Positions 19,928 to 30,712 of a stretch of DNA of 64,000 nt are shown here, in pieces; the first letter of the stretch is position 1, and each line of letters starts with the position of its first letter. The position numbers and the translations under genes are program-made. The notes under the pieces are model-generated. The model saw only the letters and a program-made list of their open reading frames with translations, did not search any database and had not been told where the DNA came from. Source of the stretch: Lacinutrix sp. WUR7 (GTDB taxonomy: Bacteria > Bacteroidota > Bacteroidia > Flavobacteriales > Flavobacteriaceae); assembly GCF_016864015.1 (NCBI RefSeq), contig NZ_CP045067.1, positions 1,647,001 to 1,711,000 of the forward strand, given 5' to 3'.

Positions 19928-19964
19928 TAAGTAGTTTTTTAAATTATAAAATACATTTGAAATA

Positions 19965-20037
19965 GCCTAAAATAAAACGAGATCAAAATTGGCGTGCTGA
20001 AGAAGTTGAAGAGCTTCTGGAGTTGGATGGTGTTTAG
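19965..20037 (+). pseudogene. Second decayed 3' fragment of the 13193 methyltransferase
   Basis: A 73-bp remnant matches the last codons of the methyltransferase: GCCTAAAATAAAACGAGATC, then AAAATTGGCGTGCTGAAGAA and a GGAGTTGGATGGTGTTTAG end. A weaker match to the preceding TTTTAAATTA segment lies at about 19937. Together with 18814-19016 it brackets the TspO-like gene in the same orientation. Confidence 0.75.
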
Positions 20038-20227
20038 TAGTTTTTGTGTTGTAAACTAAATATGTTTTTAATTACAATGCATCGTTTAAATAAATTGAGA
20101 TTTACCCTTTAACTTAATAAAATTATACCTTTATTGTTAAGTTAGTATTTAATCTCAACTTTTGTTTATAAATTAGCTAATAAATTTTTTACTAGAATCC
20201 ATAAAGAATATTTAAAATAAGTAATTT

Positions 20228-20557
20228 TTGATTGTTGCATTTAAAGATAGGAATTTAAGGGATTTATGTGAAGATGAGGGTAAATGTATTCTTATATATG
20301 GTGAAGAAGCAACTATTCAATTACAGAATAGACTTTTAGATTTATTTGCAGCTGAAAGTATTTTAGATGTTTTAGTAGGGAATTTAAAAGAAATAAGATT
20401 GAATGATCTTATTTGCTTTCAATTAGAGCTTAATGAGAATTATGTATTGGAATTAGTCCCTAATCATACCGATTTAGAAGATTTTAATTTAGAAAATGGT
20501 ATAGATTGGTCAGCAATTACAAGGATAAAAATTACTTCAATTAATAAAAAGATATAA
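20228..20557 (+). CDS. HigB/RelE-like toxin of a type II toxin-antitoxin pair
   Basis: The 109-residue protein starts at TTG 20228 (no in-frame ATG exists). It has the size and pattern of plasmid-maintenance killer (HigB) proteins, with an N-terminal F-K-D-R-N-L-R-D-L-C start and a C-terminal WSAITRIKITSINK strand. HigB-like proteins are mRNA interferases of the RelE fold. The stop codon shares one base with the start of the next gene (TAATG), the usual toxin-antitoxin coupling. The assignment rests on size, pattern and the HigA-like partner. The upstream 190 bp is AT-rich and holds no recognisable promoter consensus. Confidence 0.65.
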   Translation: MIVAFKDRNLRDLCEDEGKCILIYGEEATIQLQNRLLDLFAAESILDVLVGNLKEIRLNDLICFQLELNENYVLELVPNHTDLEDFNLENGIDWSAITRIKITSINKKI

Positions 20558-21642
20558 TGATAAATTTTCAGCCAAATTGGACTTCATCACCAGGAAATAC
20601 AATAAATGATATTTTAAAAAATAGAAGTATTGAAGTGCCCGTTTTTGCTAAAAAAATTGATGAATCTACTGATTTAGTGATCAAGCTTATTGAAGGTTCT
20701 ATCAAAATAAATAATGAGTTGGCATCTAAGTTGTCAAATGAATTAGGTACTTCTCGTTCATTCTGGATTAATCGAGAAGAGCATTATAGAAGTTTATTGA
20801 AAGTTAATCAACCAAAAGTTATGTCTAATTGGATCAGTTCGCTACCTATTAAGGATATGATTAAGTTTGGCTGGATTAAAGATTCTAATAATTTAGAAAA
20901 AGAATGTTTGAATTATTTTGGTGTCAGCGATGTTTATGCGTGGTATACTAAGTATACTAATACAAATACATTATCTTTTAGAAAAACAGAGACTTATAAA
21001 TCTGATTTAGCATCTATTTTTAGTTGGATAAGACGTGGAGAATTACTTTCTAATAAGTATCCTTTAAATGAATGGAATAAACAAAAGTTTTTAGATTCTT
21101 TAGATGAGATTAAGACTTTAACCAGAGAGAAAAATCCAAAAAAATTCTTACCTAAATTAATTTCTATTTGTTCTGATTGCGGAGTTGTACTTGCAATAGT
21201 TCCTACTCCTAAAAATTGCCCAGTTAGTGGAGTAGTTAAGTTTATAGGTAATAGAGCTTTGATACAAATGAGTTTTAGGTACTTATCAGATGATCAGTTC
21301 TGGTTTACTTTCTTTCATGAGGCAGGACATTTAATTTTACATAATCCAGAAAATCCTATTTTAGAAATTGATAAGAAAGTAATTGATGAAAAGGAAAAAG
21401 AAGCAAATGATTTTGCTCAAGAAGTTCTAATTCCTTACTATTTGAAAGAAGAGATGATGAAAATCAGAGGTAATAAAAAGAAAATAGTTGGTTTTTCAAT
21501 TAAAGCTGGTGTATCTCCAGGTATAGTAATAGGTCAGTTACAACACTTAAAGATTATTAGGTTTGAATATTTAAATGGTTACAAAAGAAGATATGATTGG
21601 TCGGATATAAATGAAACATTAGAAAGCTTGAAGCTGTCTTAA
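20557..21642 (+). CDS. HigA-like antitoxin fused to an ImmA/IrrE metallopeptidase
   Basis: In the 361-residue protein, residues 10-75 form a HigA-type helix-turn-helix (PGNTINDILKNRSI, then FAKKI, and a NELASKLSNELGTSRSFW ending). Residues 200-300 carry an ImmA/IrrE zinc peptidase with H254-E-x-x-H258 (FFHEAGHLILH) and the third ligand E282 in KEANDFAQEVLIP. This fusion joins DNA binding to a protease that may remove a repressor or the antitoxin itself under stress. It ends 8 nt before the convergent Mrr-like gene, so the pair sits at the edge of the accessory island. Confidence 0.85.
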   Translation: MINFQPNWTSSPGNTINDILKNRSIEVPVFAKKIDESTDLVIKLIEGSIKINNELASKLSNELGTSRSFWINREEHYRSLLKVNQPKVMSNWISSLPIKDMIKFGWIKDSNNLEKECLNYFGVSDVYAWYTKYTNTNTLSFRKTETYKSDLASIFSWIRRGELLSNKYPLNEWNKQKFLDSLDEIKTLTREKNPKKFLPKLISICSDCGVVLAIVPTPKNCPVSGVVKFIGNRALIQMSFRYLSDDQFWFTFFHEAGHLILHNPENPILEIDKKVIDEKEKEANDFAQEVLIPYYLKEEMMKIRGNKKKIVGFSIKAGVSPGIVIGQLQHLKIIRFEYLNGYKRRYDWSDINETLESLKLS

Positions 21643-21650
21643 TTAAATTT

Positions 21651-22397
21651 TTATTTCCTTAATTTTTTACCAAAGAGTGTATCAAATTCTTGAACTCCAG
21701 TTTCACAGAAATTAATCAACCAATCAAAATATTCTGAATAACTATTAATTTTTACATCTTTTGGGAATTTTTTTGACTGCATTTTTATGACATCATCTAA
21801 GTATTCAAGTTCAAGTTCTCCAGTCATAACATTTTTGTAATTGATGATTATTGAAGCAATAGAAATTGTATCATACTTAGCACTAAGTTGTTGATGGGTT
21901 TTCTGTTCTTCATAAGTTAGTTTTTTAACTTCTGAGTGCCAAGTTCCTTTGAACCAATCTGAGTACTTTCTCAAAGGGTATCCTATTTTCTGTAATTTAG
22001 ATGTAATATGATTTAAATATCTCAGTTTAAAATGTTCTTGAAATTCATCGAATTCCATCAAATATACATTGGTGTTTTTTACAGCTTCAAAGGAGCCAGA
22101 TTGAAATCCAACTTTTGAAACTATATATCCAGAGTTTGCTCCAAAATCAGAAACAACACTCCTAAAAGAATGTACAACACTTTTTGGAACTTTAGTTTTC
22201 CAGTTTTTACATTCAATTAAGATAGTTTGATTCGAATAGTTTTCTTTATCTATGGCAAATACATCAATATTTACAACACCTCTAACGGTATTTATGTTTT
22301 TCTCAACTTCAGTTTCAAAACCAATATCTTCTATAATTTTGGCACATTTAATTTGAAGTTCTTGCCACGTTTTTGGTTGTATGTTAAAAATCTTCAT
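21651..22397 (-). CDS. Mrr-type restriction endonuclease domain protein
   Basis: In the 248-residue protein, residues 10-120 match the Mrr catalytic domain: a W-x-E-L-Q helix start, D45 (NIDVFAID) and E62-C-K64 (LIECKNWK), which together give the PD-(D/E)xK nuclease site, then a V-V-H-S-F-R helix and a GYIVSKVGF strand. The C-terminal 120 residues are not recognised and may recognise DNA or a modified base. Mrr-type enzymes often cut modified DNA. It is the last gene of the four-gene operon, 2 nt after the aGPT-PPlase-like gene, so nuclease and modification-like genes are made together. Confidence 0.85.
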   Translation of the reverse strand: MKIFNIQPKTWQELQIKCAKIIEDIGFETEVEKNINTVRGVVNIDVFAIDKENYSNQTILIECKNWKTKVPKSVVHSFRSVVSDFGANSGYIVSKVGFQSGSFEAVKNTNVYLMEFDEFQEHFKLRYLNHITSKLQKIGYPLRKYSDWFKGTWHSEVKKLTYEEQKTHQQLSAKYDTISIASIIINYKNVMTGELELEYLDDVIKMQSKKFPKDVKINSYSEYFDWLINFCETGVQEFDTLFGKKLRK

Positions 22398-22399
22398 AA

Positions 22400-23311
22400 T
22401 TATCCTCTAAAGTGAATATAATTACTTGGGCTTTTTTGCCAATTGCATATTGAGTCTTCAATTATTTGCATTCCAAAATTTAAACCTAAATGAGCTTCTA
22501 AGGCGTTAAGTTTAAAATTTAGACTTCTTTTTGAAGTGTCGTTAAAAAGTTTTTTAGCTCCTTCATATGGTCCTGTGGATTCATTTAAATAAGTAGAGTC
22601 AGGTTCTATATTAACAATTCCAAGCTTCCCAATCATTGTCAAATAATCAAATTTCCCAAGTCTACCAAAATATTTCACTGAGCTCATAGAATTATAAAGT
22701 TTGTTGAATAAAATTTTAGGATCAGAACCTACAGTATCAATTAAATCTTGAATAAACTTTTCATGACTTTTACCTGGTCCTATCCAATTAACATAACTTT
22801 CAAATGTAGCTCCTGTACCTTTATCTTTTATACTTACATATTTTCTGTGATTACTGAATGTTCCTTTTTGTTTTAAATTTTGATGATTTCTTCTTAGCCA
22901 TGATCTAAATAATGTAGGGTCATTAGATATGGTTTGCCAATCCCAAACTATTGAAGTGCCTAATCCATTATAGGTAAACCTTACTAAATTCCATCCATGC
23001 TCTCTGTGTTTACCATAATGTATAGCTAAAAAGACTAACCAAAACGCTTCGTCGATGTCCCCATTTTGAAAATGGTAACATGCAGCTTTTAATGGGTTAA
23101 AAGTGGTTTTACTTGGATCACAAACGATACTGCTATAACTCTTTGATTTAAAAATTTGAGCAATTTTAATTCTTCTATCACTATCAATTATTTGATGAAT
23201 TAAACATTCTTTATCCGAAGAATCACTTATTCCAGGCATGCTATGAATTTTTATAAATTCAGTCAGTTTTTTGTCTAAATCGTTGTATAATGCTTTGTCT
23301 TTTATTCTCAT
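22400..23311 (-). CDS. aGPT-PPlase clade 3-like protein (predicted base hypermodification enzyme)
   Basis: The 303-residue helical protein has features I associate with the alpha-glutamyl/putrescinyl-thymine pyrophosphorylase clade 3 family: EAFWLVFLAIHYGKHREHGW (residues 88-107), NHRKY (154-158), FGRLGKFDYLTMIGKLG (215-231) and a CNWQKSP...FRG C-terminus (289-303). The phage members of the wider family attach amino acids or polyamines to hydroxymethyl-pyrimidines in DNA. It overlaps the UDG-like gene by ATGA and is followed 2 nt later by the Mrr-like nuclease. Function in a bacterial operon is predicted from family and neighbours only. Confidence 0.65.
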   Translation of the reverse strand: MRIKDKALYNDLDKKLTEFIKIHSMPGISDSSDKECLIHQIIDSDRRIKIAQIFKSKSYSSIVCDPSKTTFNPLKAACYHFQNGDIDEAFWLVFLAIHYGKHREHGWNLVRFTYNGLGTSIVWDWQTISNDPTLFRSWLRRNHQNLKQKGTFSNHRKYVSIKDKGTGATFESYVNWIGPGKSHEKFIQDLIDTVGSDPKILFNKLYNSMSSVKYFGRLGKFDYLTMIGKLGIVNIEPDSTYLNESTGPYEGAKKLFNDTSKRSLNFKLNALEAHLGLNFGMQIIEDSICNWQKSPSNYIHFRG

Positions 23312-24102
23312 ACTTTAATTTTATTTGAAAGCCAATTTCTAATAGATTTTTGGACAATACTTGTTACACCAAAACTACTTTGAATATTATGGTTAAAACC
23401 AAAGACTTTAATAGCTTGTTTTAATTTAATTCCACCTATTTTATTTACATCACCTTCAAATGAATATCCATTTACGTTTTTACCGTTTTTTCTATTTAAG
23501 ACCCAATCTGTTTGAAGTTCTTTTCTGAATGTAACATCGCTAATTTGTTCGAAGGTTTTAATAACAGTACTTCCATTTAATATTAAATAATTAATACTTG
23601 AGTTTTTTAAAAGGTGACCTAATAATAAAGATGATTTATCTAGTAAAAAATGTTTTTGATTAGGTCTTAGGTCTGACCATTTTTTTGATGTAGCATAAGG
23701 TATTAAGTCTAAATGGCATGCTTCAGTTGACGGAAAGTAATATGAATATGATGAACCAGAAATTAAATAATCTAACTTTTTAAACCATTGGTCGTAAGGA
23801 TTTCTACTAAAGTACTCATCACAAAGAGTCTTTATATAATTTGTTTTGGCACTATCAATTTCGGTCCAACTATTTATTTTTAAAGACTTTAGAGTATGAA
23901 ACCGTCTATTGTTTCCGTTTAATTCAACACCATTTAAATCTTCAAATTCTCTATTGCTAGGATTAATACCAAGAGTAGCAATTTTCGAATTAGAAATATT
24001 ACCAAAAGAGTATATTGGTGTACTCCAAGGTATAACATCTGCATATTTTATATCTGCATCTGTTAAAGTATTATTTATTACTTCAAGAATTTTTTGCTTC
24101 AT
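23308..24102 (-). CDS. Putative uracil-DNA-glycosylase-fold protein
   Basis: In the 264-residue protein, the segment KIATLGINPSNREFEDLNG (residues 40-58) looks like motif 1 of UDG-superfamily proteins (G-x-N-P-S/G). YLILNGSTVI (172-181) sits where the strand before the last active-site loop is expected, and a CHLDLIPYA segment (129-137) lies between. The classical HPS motif is not evident, so base excision cannot be assumed. It directly abuts the thymidylate-synthase-like gene (TAG then ATG, no gap) and overlaps the aGPT-like gene by ATGA. It may recognise or remove a modified base. I am moderately unsure of the fold assignment. Confidence 0.5.
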   Translation of the reverse strand: MKQKILEVINNTLTDADIKYADVIPWSTPIYSFGNISNSKIATLGINPSNREFEDLNGVELNGNNRRFHTLKSLKINSWTEIDSAKTNYIKTLCDEYFSRNPYDQWFKKLDYLISGSSYSYYFPSTEACHLDLIPYATSKKWSDLRPNQKHFLLDKSSLLLGHLLKNSSINYLILNGSTVIKTFEQISDVTFRKELQTDWVLNRKNGKNVNGYSFEGDVNKIGGIKLKQAIKVFGFNHNIQSSFGVTSIVQKSIRNWLSNKIKV

Positions 24103-25074
24103 CTAATGTCTTTTGATTTTTTGATTTGTTTTAACTCTTTGGTCAATAAAACTATGGTAAAGTGTATTGTTGATTTCTTTTTTCACTTCTTCAATTTTAA
24201 TATATTTTTTTTTCTTTAATAGCGTGTGAATTTTTAATAAAGATGTTAAATCTTGCCAGTAAGGATCAAGCTCATTAGTATTTGTCTGGTCGAATTTTTC
24301 TTTTCGTATTAATCTCTCCGCAGAAATAATTTTTTGTAAAGAATCCCATGGATTTGCTATTGGCATTTTCGGCATTTGGTAGTTTGTTGATTGTGTCCCT
24401 TCGCTTAAATATTTTTCAGCATTTAGTTTGTTTTTTTTATATAAATGTAAACTACCAATAGCATGATGATAAGAACCTATTTCAATACCGAGTGAAACCG
24501 CTATTATTTCTTGTAACATAGTAAAACAAAAAATATCATGAGGCAGTCCAAGAAAAGCGTCATTAGATCTCATAGATGTCATCATAATTAGTTTTCCATT
24601 CCTAACAGTAAACTGTAATGTTGTTGTACATGGAATATCTTTGTGTTGCTCAATCAAATCTTTTGCATCAAATAGTTGAATTACAGCTCTTCTAGAATTT
24701 GGTTTTTTTCTTAAAATTTCAATAACATTATTAACTTGGTTTATATGACCATCCTTTTTAAATAATCTTGGTCCATAGCCTCCATAAATTGTTTCATTAT
24801 CATCAGAAGATTTTACATATTGAGGTATGTAATACTTGATATATTTTAATGCATTCGTTTTGCTTAAATACCAGAAGAGTTCGCCTAGGGAACTAAAAGC
24901 TTTACCTTTTGTTTCAGTAATACTTAACCTTGCTCTTGGGTTTTTTAATTCTATCAAACAACCGAATATTTCAGAACTAGCTCCTTTTGTCGGGATTACA
25001 TCAAATGGTAGTTTTAGTAGTTCGGTAAAAACTCTATTTAGAATATCATCTAAAGTTTTTTCTATTATATGCAT
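24103..25074 (-). CDS. Thymidylate-synthase-family protein, predicted dCMP-directed
   Basis: The 323-residue protein keeps the thymidylate synthase core: folate-site GELFWYL (64-70), phosphate-binding SRR (127-129), nucleophile C149 in DIPCTTTLQF, phosphate loop RSND (169-172) and GSLHLY (207-212, normally GDxHxY). The conserved PFN motif whose Asn reads the uracil ring is PHD here, so the position equivalent to E. coli Asn177 is Asp180. Asp at this site is known from dCMP hydroxymethylases and from TS variants that act on dCMP. The likely reaction is therefore hydroxymethylation or methylation of dCMP, not dUMP. It is the first gene of the four-gene island operon. Confidence 0.85.
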   Translation of the reverse strand: MHIIEKTLDDILNRVFTELLKLPFDVIPTKGASSEIFGCLIELKNPRARLSITETKGKAFSSLGELFWYLSKTNALKYIKYYIPQYVKSSDDNETIYGGYGPRLFKKDGHINQVNNVIEILRKKPNSRRAVIQLFDAKDLIEQHKDIPCTTTLQFTVRNGKLIMMTSMRSNDAFLGLPHDIFCFTMLQEIIAVSLGIEIGSYHHAIGSLHLYKKNKLNAEKYLSEGTQSTNYQMPKMPIANPWDSLQKIISAERLIRKEKFDQTNTNELDPYWQDLTSLLKIHTLLKKKKYIKIEEVKKEINNTLYHSFIDQRVKTNQKIKRH

Positions 25075-25217
25075 TGATGGATTTTTATCAAATTAGTGAT
25101 TTTGTAAACAAGTAAATGAAAAGCCTATTTATTTTAAATAATAAAAGTAAATTAATGCTTTTGTTTTATTTTACGGGTATCCTCAATTACGCTATAATAT
25201 TTTAACAAACAGGTTTC

Positions 25218-29222: not shown

Positions 29223-30712
29223 TTCTCGATACAATTTTCTCGTGCCTCGAAAATCACTCGAAGTGACAAGTTGGTTGTATTGTCAGTTCGAGTGATGCGA
29301 CGCTAGGAGTATTGTATCGAGAACTATTTGTGTTTGCTTCTCGATACAATTTGTTCATGCTTCACAAACCACTCGAAGTGACAAGTAGTATTTTAATTGG
29401 ATTTCATTGTCAGTTCGAGTGATGCGACCAAAGGAGCATTGTATCGAGAACTATTTGTGTTTGCTTCTCGATACAATTTTATCGTGCCTCGAAAACCACT
29501 CGAAGTGACAAGTTGGTTGTATTGTCAGTTCGAGTGATTTCGATTTTTTATCGAAATTGTATCGAGAACCTATCTATTATCAAACTTCTTCTTTGAGAGA
29601 TTAGGTAGTTTTTCGAATGTATTATTTATTAAAGCTTCCTTTTTCGCTCTAGACCATTTCTTAATCTGCTTTTCACAAGCAATAGCATGATTTGGATTTG
29701 AAAATGTAGTATGAAAAACTAGCGTAATTGGTCTTCTTTTAAAGGTGTAACAGTCTGGGTATTTACCTGTTTTATGCTCTATAATTCTAATATTTAATCT
29801 AGAACTAAATCCGGTGTAGTAACTTTTATCGGAACACTCTAATATGTAAACGTAATATGTTTTCATGTTTAAAGTTAGTAAAAAAATGTTTGCTTCTCGA
29901 TACAATTTTCTCGTGCCTCAAAAACCACTCGAAGTGATAAGCAGTATTTTTTTGATTGAAGTTCATTGTCAGTTCGAGTGATGCGACGCTAGGAGTGTTG
30001 TATCGAGAACTATTTGTGTTTGCTTCTCGATACAATTTGTTCATGCTTCACAAATCACTCGAAGTGACAAAAGCTATATTTTTTGATTGATCTTTATTGT
30101 CAGTTCGAGTGATGCGACCAAAGGAGCATTGTATCGAGAACTATCGTGTTGACTTCTCGATACAATTTTATCGTGCCTCAAAAATCACTCGAAGTGACAA
30201 AAGCTATATTTTTTGATTGAAGTTAATTGTCAGTTCGAGTGATGCGACCAAAGGAGCATTGTATTGAGAACTATTTGTGTTTGCTTCTCGATACAATTTG
30301 CTCATGCTTCACAAATCACTCGAAGTGACAAGTAGTATTTGATTGGATTTCATGGTCAGTTCGAGTGATGCGACCAAAGGAGCATTGTATCGAGAACTAT
30401 CGTGTTGACTTCTCGATACAATTTTCTCGTGCCTCAAAAACCACTCGAAGTGACAAGCAGTATTTTTTTGATTGAAGTTCATTGTCAGTTCGAGTGATGC
30501 GACCAAAGGAGTATTGTGTCTAGAACTATTTGTGTTTGCTTCTCGATACAATTTTCTCATGCCTCGAAAACCACTCGAAGTGACAAGTAGTATTTTAATT
30601 GGATTTCATTGTCAGTTCGAGTGATGCGACCAAAGGAGCATTGTATCGAGAACTATCGTGTTGACTTCTCGATACAATTTGTTCATGCTTCACAAATCAC
30701 TCGAAGTGACAA
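29223..30712. repeat. Array of about ten palindromic ~100-117 bp repeats around a GIY-YIG gene
   Basis: Units begin TTCTCGATACAAT and end ATTGTATCGAGAA, perfect inverted ends of 13 bp. Inside are CACTCGAAGTGACA and the near-complement TGTCAGTTCGAGTG. I place full units at 29223-29323, 29338-29450, 29465-29568, 29894-30009, 30024-30140, 30154-30270, 30285-30396, 30410-30525 and 30540-30652, and a left half at 30666-30712. Spacers between units are only 13-14 bp except where the GIY-YIG gene (29570-29866) sits. Unit centres vary (two subtypes, GTGCCTC and ATGCTTC), so the array grew by copying of diverged units. It is not CRISPR: the repeats are long and the spacers are not unique. Confidence 0.92.
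29570..29866 (-). CDS. Single-domain GIY-YIG nuclease within the repeat array
   Basis: The 98-residue protein (start ATG 29866; an upstream in-frame extension to 29905 reaches into the next repeat) has YVY (5-7) and YTG (17-19) as the GIY-YIG elements, R27 and H31 in the first helix, and a Glu in AIACEKQIKKW. These are the catalytic positions of the family. The stop codon lies 2 nt beyond the end of repeat unit 3, and the start is 28 nt from unit 4. Small GIY-YIG proteins are common and mostly uncharacterised; a role in moving or copying the flanking palindromes is an idea suggested by position only. Confidence 0.85.
   Translation of the reverse strand: MKTYYVYILECSDKSYYTGFSSRLNIRIIEHKTGKYPDCYTFKRRPITLVFHTTFSNPNHAIACEKQIKKWSRAKKEALINNTFEKLPNLSKKKFDNR

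Follow-up and report, generated by a model that had tools for sequence, protein, structure and literature searches.

Enzymes of the aGPT-PPlase and amino acid:DNA transferase families belong to phage pathways of thymidine hypermodification. Hydroxymethylases acting on dCMP or CMP are described from phages and an antibiotic pathway (PMC5175136, PMC6400193), and Brig1, which removes alpha-glucosyl-hydroxymethyl-cytosine, is reported to be alone responsible for its immunity (PMC11078745). Among regulators, CapP and PprI are described as IrrE-like proteases activated by single-stranded DNA (ssDNA) that cleave a helix-turn-helix (HTH) repressor, CapH or DdrO (PMC13373217, PMC10904395), and in PD-lambda-2 an HTH-peptidase is reported to be toxic alone and rescued by a HigB-like partner (PMC9519451). 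Here we describe a locus of Lacinutrix sp. WUR7 whose proteins resemble several of these: a minus-strand operon encoding a thymidylate synthase (TS) homologue of the dCMP type and an aGPT-Pplase clade 3 protein (aGPT3) converges on a plus-strand pair encoding a HigB-like protein and an HTH domain fused to an ImmA/IrrE metallopeptidase (HTH-ImmA). Coordinates refer to the window, the 64,000-nucleotide stretch of contig NZ_CP045067.1 that was analysed (positions 1,647,001 to 1,711,000, forward strand). That the convergent halves belong together as one mobile cassette is well supported, and the cassette probably represents a form of anti-virus defence not described before.

The minus-strand operon opens with a TS-superfamily protein of 323 aa, a predicted dCMP 5-hydroxymethylase (24103..25074; PF00303, Thymidylat_synt, E = 2.3e-30). 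It continues with a 264-aa protein of predicted uracil-DNA glycosylase (UDG) superfamily fold (23308..24102), the 303-aa aGPT3, of the aGPT-Pplase clade 3 / amino acid:DNA transferase family (22400..23311; aGPT-Pplase3, E = 1.3e-94; ADDT, E = 3.4e-69), and, as an accessory at the operon end, a 248-aa Mrr-type PD-(D/E)xK nuclease (21651..22397; Mrr_cat, E = 4.1e-12). On the plus strand, convergent with this operon, lie the HigB/RelE-like small protein (109 aa, TTG start, 20228..20557; assigned through relatives of its family) and the 361-aa HTH-ImmA protein, with a HigA-type HTH (20557..21642; Peptidase_M78, E = 5.2e-08), whose start overlaps the small gene by 1 nt. The Mrr gene fills the place between the two halves, its stop lying 8 nt from that of HTH-ImmA. 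A first-pass annotation had read the four minus-strand genes as one operon of these types, tied to base modification or defence. Their positions, common strand and junctions (a 0-nt gap between TS and UDG-like genes, a 4-nt ATGA overlap into aGPT3 and a 2-nt gap before Mrr) are confirmed, and the four form a real operon. The profile matches bear out the aGPT-PPlase and Mrr-type assignments, structure prediction agrees with a UDG-like fold, the dCMP type is borne out by an Asp at the base-selecting position in every aligned TS homologue, and the link to modification and defence is supported.

We scanned a genome collection of 84,980 species with an aGPT3 alignment, which yielded 200 relatives; the best 80 of these, with seven of eight plasmid records, gave 87 loci. 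All were fetched by aGPT3, and co-occurrence is therefore conditional on it. Gene content was called with iterative profiles: aGPT3 was found in 87/87 loci, TS in 85/87, HTH-ImmA in 84/87, the small gene in 82/87, the UDG-like gene in 39/87 and a window-type Mrr in 3/87. The core order is TS homologue, UDG-like gene where present, and aGPT3 on one strand, facing HTH-ImmA and the HigB-like gene on the other. All four core genes were present in 81/87 plasmid and genome loci, with aGPT3 and HTH-ImmA convergent in 80 of the 81, and all seven plasmid loci carry TS, aGPT3 and a convergent HTH-ImmA gene. The two halves lie close together, their stop codons being at most 30 nt apart in 76/83 loci and touching or overlapping in 48/83 (median -4, a 4-nt overlap). 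TS and aGPT3 occur together in 85/87 loci. The first-pass annotation had treated the four minus-strand genes as the set to be conserved, with the expected folds in its two middle proteins. On this check its TS, UDG-like and aGPT3 portion holds, the three recurring together in 38/87 loci across several phyla, beyond chance as for TS with aGPT3, and Mrr fails; the pair that is the constant partner, HigB-like and HTH-ImmA, had been omitted. A four-gene unit that includes Mrr is rejected.

Judged by record titles, loci came from Bacteroidota, alpha-, beta- and gammaproteobacteria, Acidobacteria, Chloroflexi, Planctomycetes and Gemmatimonadales, with others from Sorangium, Actinobacteria, a Methylacidiphilales bin and a Leptospira plasmid. 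Among the six incomplete loci, L024, L059 and L083 stop at the edge of the DNA covered; in L010 the small gene was missed by the profile, although it had been placed in an alignment by eye, and L020 lacks TS. In the sixth, L017, the aGPT3 gene (L017:7980-8891) is accompanied by none of TS, ImmA and the small gene; it lies on a possibly phage contig where two open reading frames resemble cytosine methyltransferases by eye. An alignment-based scan of viral contigs added 26 loci, of which 22 have all four core genes; L101 and L114 lack the small gene only, L103 lacks ImmA and the small gene and L120 lacks TS, each of the four stopping at the edge of the DNA covered. Not every one of the 113 loci is independent of the others. 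Several are near-copies, L110 and L112 share a contig, and L097 resembles L098; certain viral contigs, such as L095 as set against L014, may derive from the same strains as genome loci, or from close ones.

The two halves also diverge together. Pairwise protein distances over 78 rows, in which host phylogeny is still contained, correlated across strands (aGPT3-ImmA: r = 0.71, TS-ImmA: r = 0.65) as well as along them (TS-aGPT3: r = 0.59, ImmA-small: r = 0.72). With close pairs removed the values were 0.65, 0.58, 0.51 and 0.67, respectively, and the highest permuted correlation was 0.21 (500 permutations per pair). An operator common to both promoters appeared in small excess, which base composition could explain.

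We next considered what the TS homologue may act on. The alignment comprised 84 rows, the window included, with pieces below 230 residues (L022, L028) omitted. Catalytic C149, R169, S170, Asp172, D180, H210 and Y212 are invariant, and R128 is present in 80/84 rows with Lys in the other four. D180 falls at the position of EcTS Asn177, which is Asn in the host's own ThyA, a separate canonical enzyme encoded elsewhere in the genome; Asp at this base-selecting position is tied to dCMP in published work (PMC6400193, PMC8670742). The tail at the ThyA C terminus is unconserved in the homologues and the Trp83 position variable. The nearest PDB sequence is the CMP hydroxymethylase MilA (E = 4.9e-47), with the best thymidylate synthase at 9.7e-21; T4 dCMP hydroxymethylase is not among the 60 PDB matches listed. 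The catalytic Cys, His and Tyr and the Asp for cytosine are held in common with MilA and the T4 enzyme (PMC5175136, PMC6400193). In MilA, changing Ala176 and Lys133 to Ser and Arg is reported to reverse the preference to dCMP (PMC5175136), and these positions, counted along the MilA alignment, are S170 and R128 here; whereas MilA has Ala and Lys, the window protein thus carries the deoxyribose-type Ser and Arg linked to dCMP over CMP. From these active-site residues we predict, with good confidence, that the TS homologue converts dCMP into 5-hydroxymethyl-dCMP. As a base, dUMP was considered and rejected on account of Asp180. The loci thus hold a widespread bacterial family of predicted dCMP hydroxymethylases, tied to a protease-type regulator and a transferase- or glycosylase-type enzyme.

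The second constant enzyme, aGPT3, scores far above the cut-offs of both of its profiles (aGPT-Pplase3: 317.1 bits against 25; ADDT: 233.5 bits against 26.2). A Foldseek search of the PDB gave no match below E 0.6, and the predicted structure, compared with VIA-align, resembles a phage amino-acid:DNA transferase and HhH glycosylases, less firmly than the UDG-like protein resembles its fold. The cassette therefore has protein families in common with phage thymidine hypermodification, and a similar predicted fold, but it differs in its dCMP-type TS, its protease-type regulator, its bacterial setting and the absence of a kinase from the slot; a 5-hydroxymethyldeoxyuridine kinase was sought by Pfam among the six slot genes only, and none was found.

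The 264-aa UDG-like protein had no match in Pfam, PADLOC, PHROG or NCBIfam, and PDB sequence profiles of the small, UDG-like and aGPT3 families returned chance-like matches only. The predicted structure of the UDG-like protein has the UDG alpha/beta fold, with Sulfolobus tokodaii Family 4 UDG as the best structural match. Brig1, compared by structure, has the same fold and likewise that best match (PMC11078745); whereas Brig1 is described as the sole factor responsible for immunity, the UDG-like gene here is an optional part of the cassette. In viral contigs it occurs only alongside aGPT3 (4/4), and on plasmids only in the Leptospira cassette. For the Mrr protein, D45, E62 and K64 were read from the sequence. 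Mrr relatives occur in L008, L016 and L060 at varied positions, and in one of the 26 viral loci, L112; Mrr is therefore no constant restriction partner.

On the regulatory side, the HExxH motif and third-ligand Glu of HTH-ImmA (H254, E255, H258, E280) are conserved in 84/84 rows. In PADLOC the protein matches PD-Lambda-2_B (E = 1.2e-22), RmrA (3.9e-08) and capP (1.1e-06), and its match to the HigA model TIGR02607 (4.2e-05) is below that model's cut-off. Pfam HigB-like_toxin was matched by only 3/82 small proteins (best 1.5e-4), the window member not among them, and PADLOC gave nothing convincing for the 82, with no PD-Lambda-2 model matched. The profile of the small family does match RelE/ParE-annotated genes beside other HTH-ImmA genes (L127, 3e-17; L131, 8e-14). 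PD-lambda-2 has a HigB-like gene followed by an HTH-ImmA fusion (PMC9519451); the window protein corresponds to the fusion, the small gene before it may correspond to the HigB-like component, and the partner here is a convergent operon for the predicted dCMP hydroxymethylase and aGPT3. The P4-antitoxin-like third component of PD-lambda-2 had no match at E 1 among the six proteins of the slot, the presence of its model in the PADLOC library being unconfirmed. CapH and CapP place an IrrE-like protease with an HTH repressor next to immune operons, those of CBASS among them; in the window, however, HTH and protease are fused, a HigB-like gene stands ahead of them and the operon is convergent (PMC13373217, PMC10904395).

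Relatives of the window HTH-ImmA protein occur on 27 plasmid records, eight of which carry the cassette. We inspected 10 of the 19 cassette-free records: a relative of the small gene is present in nine, all but L130, and no TS, aGPT3 or UDG-like gene was found in the DNA fetched around the 10 HTH-ImmA genes. Defence-type genes lie near HTH-ImmA in 6/8 annotated cassette-free loci, a raw count with no background rate beside it; L128 and L129 show no evident ones. The neighbours differ from plasmid to plasmid: a Pycsar TIR and cyclase with E2 (L130), type I restriction-modification, DUF262 and Fic genes (L131), E1/multiubiquitin operons (L132, L134 and L135, with DarT too in L134), and a P-loop NTPase with a restriction-modification S subunit (L127). 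A HigB-like gene precedes HTH-ImmA in four of L130, L131, L132, L134 and L135. A tree was built from 94 HTH-ImmA proteins; those of the cassette, 84 in number, and L133, a plasmid copy without cassette enzymes, split from the other nine with a branch support of 100/100, the bootstrap being unsettled. It is possible that HTH-ImmA, in most cases together with the small gene, is a movable controller set beside different immune operons; if the cassette defends, the pair would be a common controller joining immune operons of very different kinds.

The cassette is sporadic and recurs in unrelated bacteria on mobile elements, plasmids and apparent prophages. The aGPT3 protein is present on 8/72,556 plasmid records, and among 395 genomes of the phylum only the window's own passed the aGPT-Pplase3 cut-off, a weak match below it in G053 having an internal stop. 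No aGPT3 was found in annotated phage records by tblastn, and a scan of viral contigs with the single protein gave no match, the 26 viral loci coming from the alignment-based scan. In the window the cassette occupies a slot between a 266-aa gene and polA (19928..25217). The 266-aa gene, which has no Pfam match, is present in 3/7 genomes of the genus, the window's own included, and in congeners G395 and G400 this slot is taken by cassettes with a C5-methyltransferase. In one, the enzyme is accompanied by a PDC-M26A/AAA-like protein and by a DUF2357/PDDEXK_7 protein, McrBC-like in our reading; in the other, by a type II restriction endonuclease-like gene. The two cassettes, L125:1963-7744 and L126:6229-9527, differ from each other. 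Because the congener slots carry methyltransferase cassettes, the slot is used by restriction-like genes, which suggests a hotspot for defence genes in the chromosome.

Because of this slot, the mobile carriers and the immune neighbours of HTH-ImmA, we judge it likely that the cassette is a defence system. How it would defend can be sketched from its parts. Once the TS homologue had supplied 5-hydroxymethyl-dCMP, aGPT3 would act on the hydroxymethyl-cytosine, either at the nucleotide level or once it is part of DNA, its family suggesting that it probably adds an amine or amino acid; the UDG-fold protein, and Mrr in this locus, may attack DNA carrying the product. By analogy with CapP and PprI, HTH-ImmA and its HigB-like partner would repress the cassette in the absence of infection, and ssDNA or another sign of infection would activate the peptidase. 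The modified cytosine would then enter new DNA, chiefly the invader's, and ruin it, the cell itself paying a price. We regard the whole statement, that this is a mobile defence cassette whose cytosine-modifying enzymes are under the control of a protease switch, as evenly balanced between right and wrong. The further step, that an ssDNA-sensing host makes hypermodified cytosine, with a hydroxymethyl or amino substituent, to poison DNA made during infection, would be a new class of immunity and is offered tentatively, as possible but doubtful. If the cassette does defend, hypermodified bases would arm bacteria and not only shield phages. The cassette also offers candidate new cytosine-modifying enzymes.

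Other readings of the same genes were weighed. The enzymes are of modification type, UDG-like or Mrr genes accompany them in some loci and the congeners hold methyltransferase cassettes in the same slot, all of which would suit a restriction system, as the first-pass annotation had proposed, here one that marks host DNA with modified cytosine and destroys unmarked or wrongly marked DNA by glycosylase or nuclease. The pattern of such a system was not found, since both candidate effectors are inconstant (39/87 and 3/87; the flanks were not scanned for other nucleases). A hydroxymethylase working on nucleotides should moreover be unable to mark specific sites, and a constitutive mark would not need the protease-type regulator that is the constant partner, so we consider this reading unlikely. 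Alternatively, hydroxymethylation of dCMP could be followed by cleavage of the product's glycosidic bond, with aGPT3 acting as a glycosylase, so that infected cells run short of dCTP; the logic would be similar to that of MilA working ahead of a hydroxymethyl-CMP glycosidase, and we give this possibility low probability.

The HigB/HigA-ImmA pair might instead be a toxin-antitoxin or stress module that keeps plasmids and prophages in place, with the enzyme arm as an accessory that has nothing to do with phage defence. A pair of this kind is indeed present in most loci (small gene 82/87, HTH-ImmA 84/87), and plasmids and viral contigs carry it. However, cassette HTH-ImmA proteins form a group distinct from nine of the ten others placed in the tree and co-diverge with the enzymes, maintenance alone leaves the conserved dCMP-hydroxymethylase active site unexplained, and at least four loci lie on chromosome records (L038, L044, L047, L055); we find it improbable that addiction is the purpose. 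A mobile, protease-controlled defence cassette remains our preferred reading of the locus.

The exact gene set was not found described in literature searched by title and start of abstract; older comparative papers may cover some of its parts. DefensePredictor, in its text and the legend of Fig. 6F, counts aGPT-Pplase among predicted defence domains without validation, with UDG and HTH in the legend, and reports a validated system with a thymidylate synthase domain (PMC13092281); the likeness to the cassette seen in text and legend is one of domain names, and the term ImmA is absent from the main text.

Several loci carry further genes. A DUF4031-like gene occurs in 19/87 loci, recurring in Proteobacteria and mostly adjoining TS or UDG (e.g. 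L066:6797-7159); it was Pfam-confirmed in 1/19, the rest being called by phmmer. A NUDIX gene, Pfam-confirmed in 3/5 and otherwise found by phmmer, adjoins the cassette in five loci of Bacteroidota and immediately precedes TS in three of them; such a hydrolase would suit a need for clearing hydroxymethyl-dCTP. An XRE regulator is present in five loci, and in L012 an Abi_C gene lies between the convergent halves. L110 and L112 place the cassette at two positions of one 118,644-base viral contig, perhaps through redundant assembly, and the Pantoea plasmid L008 has the same gene spacing, with genes annotated for phage head-processing and lysis. Further along the window, an array of tandem repeats, each about 128 bp long, occupies 29279-29513 (1.9 copies) and 29893-30712 (6.4 copies, 84% matches), and related sequence lies 3' of the same gene in congener L126.

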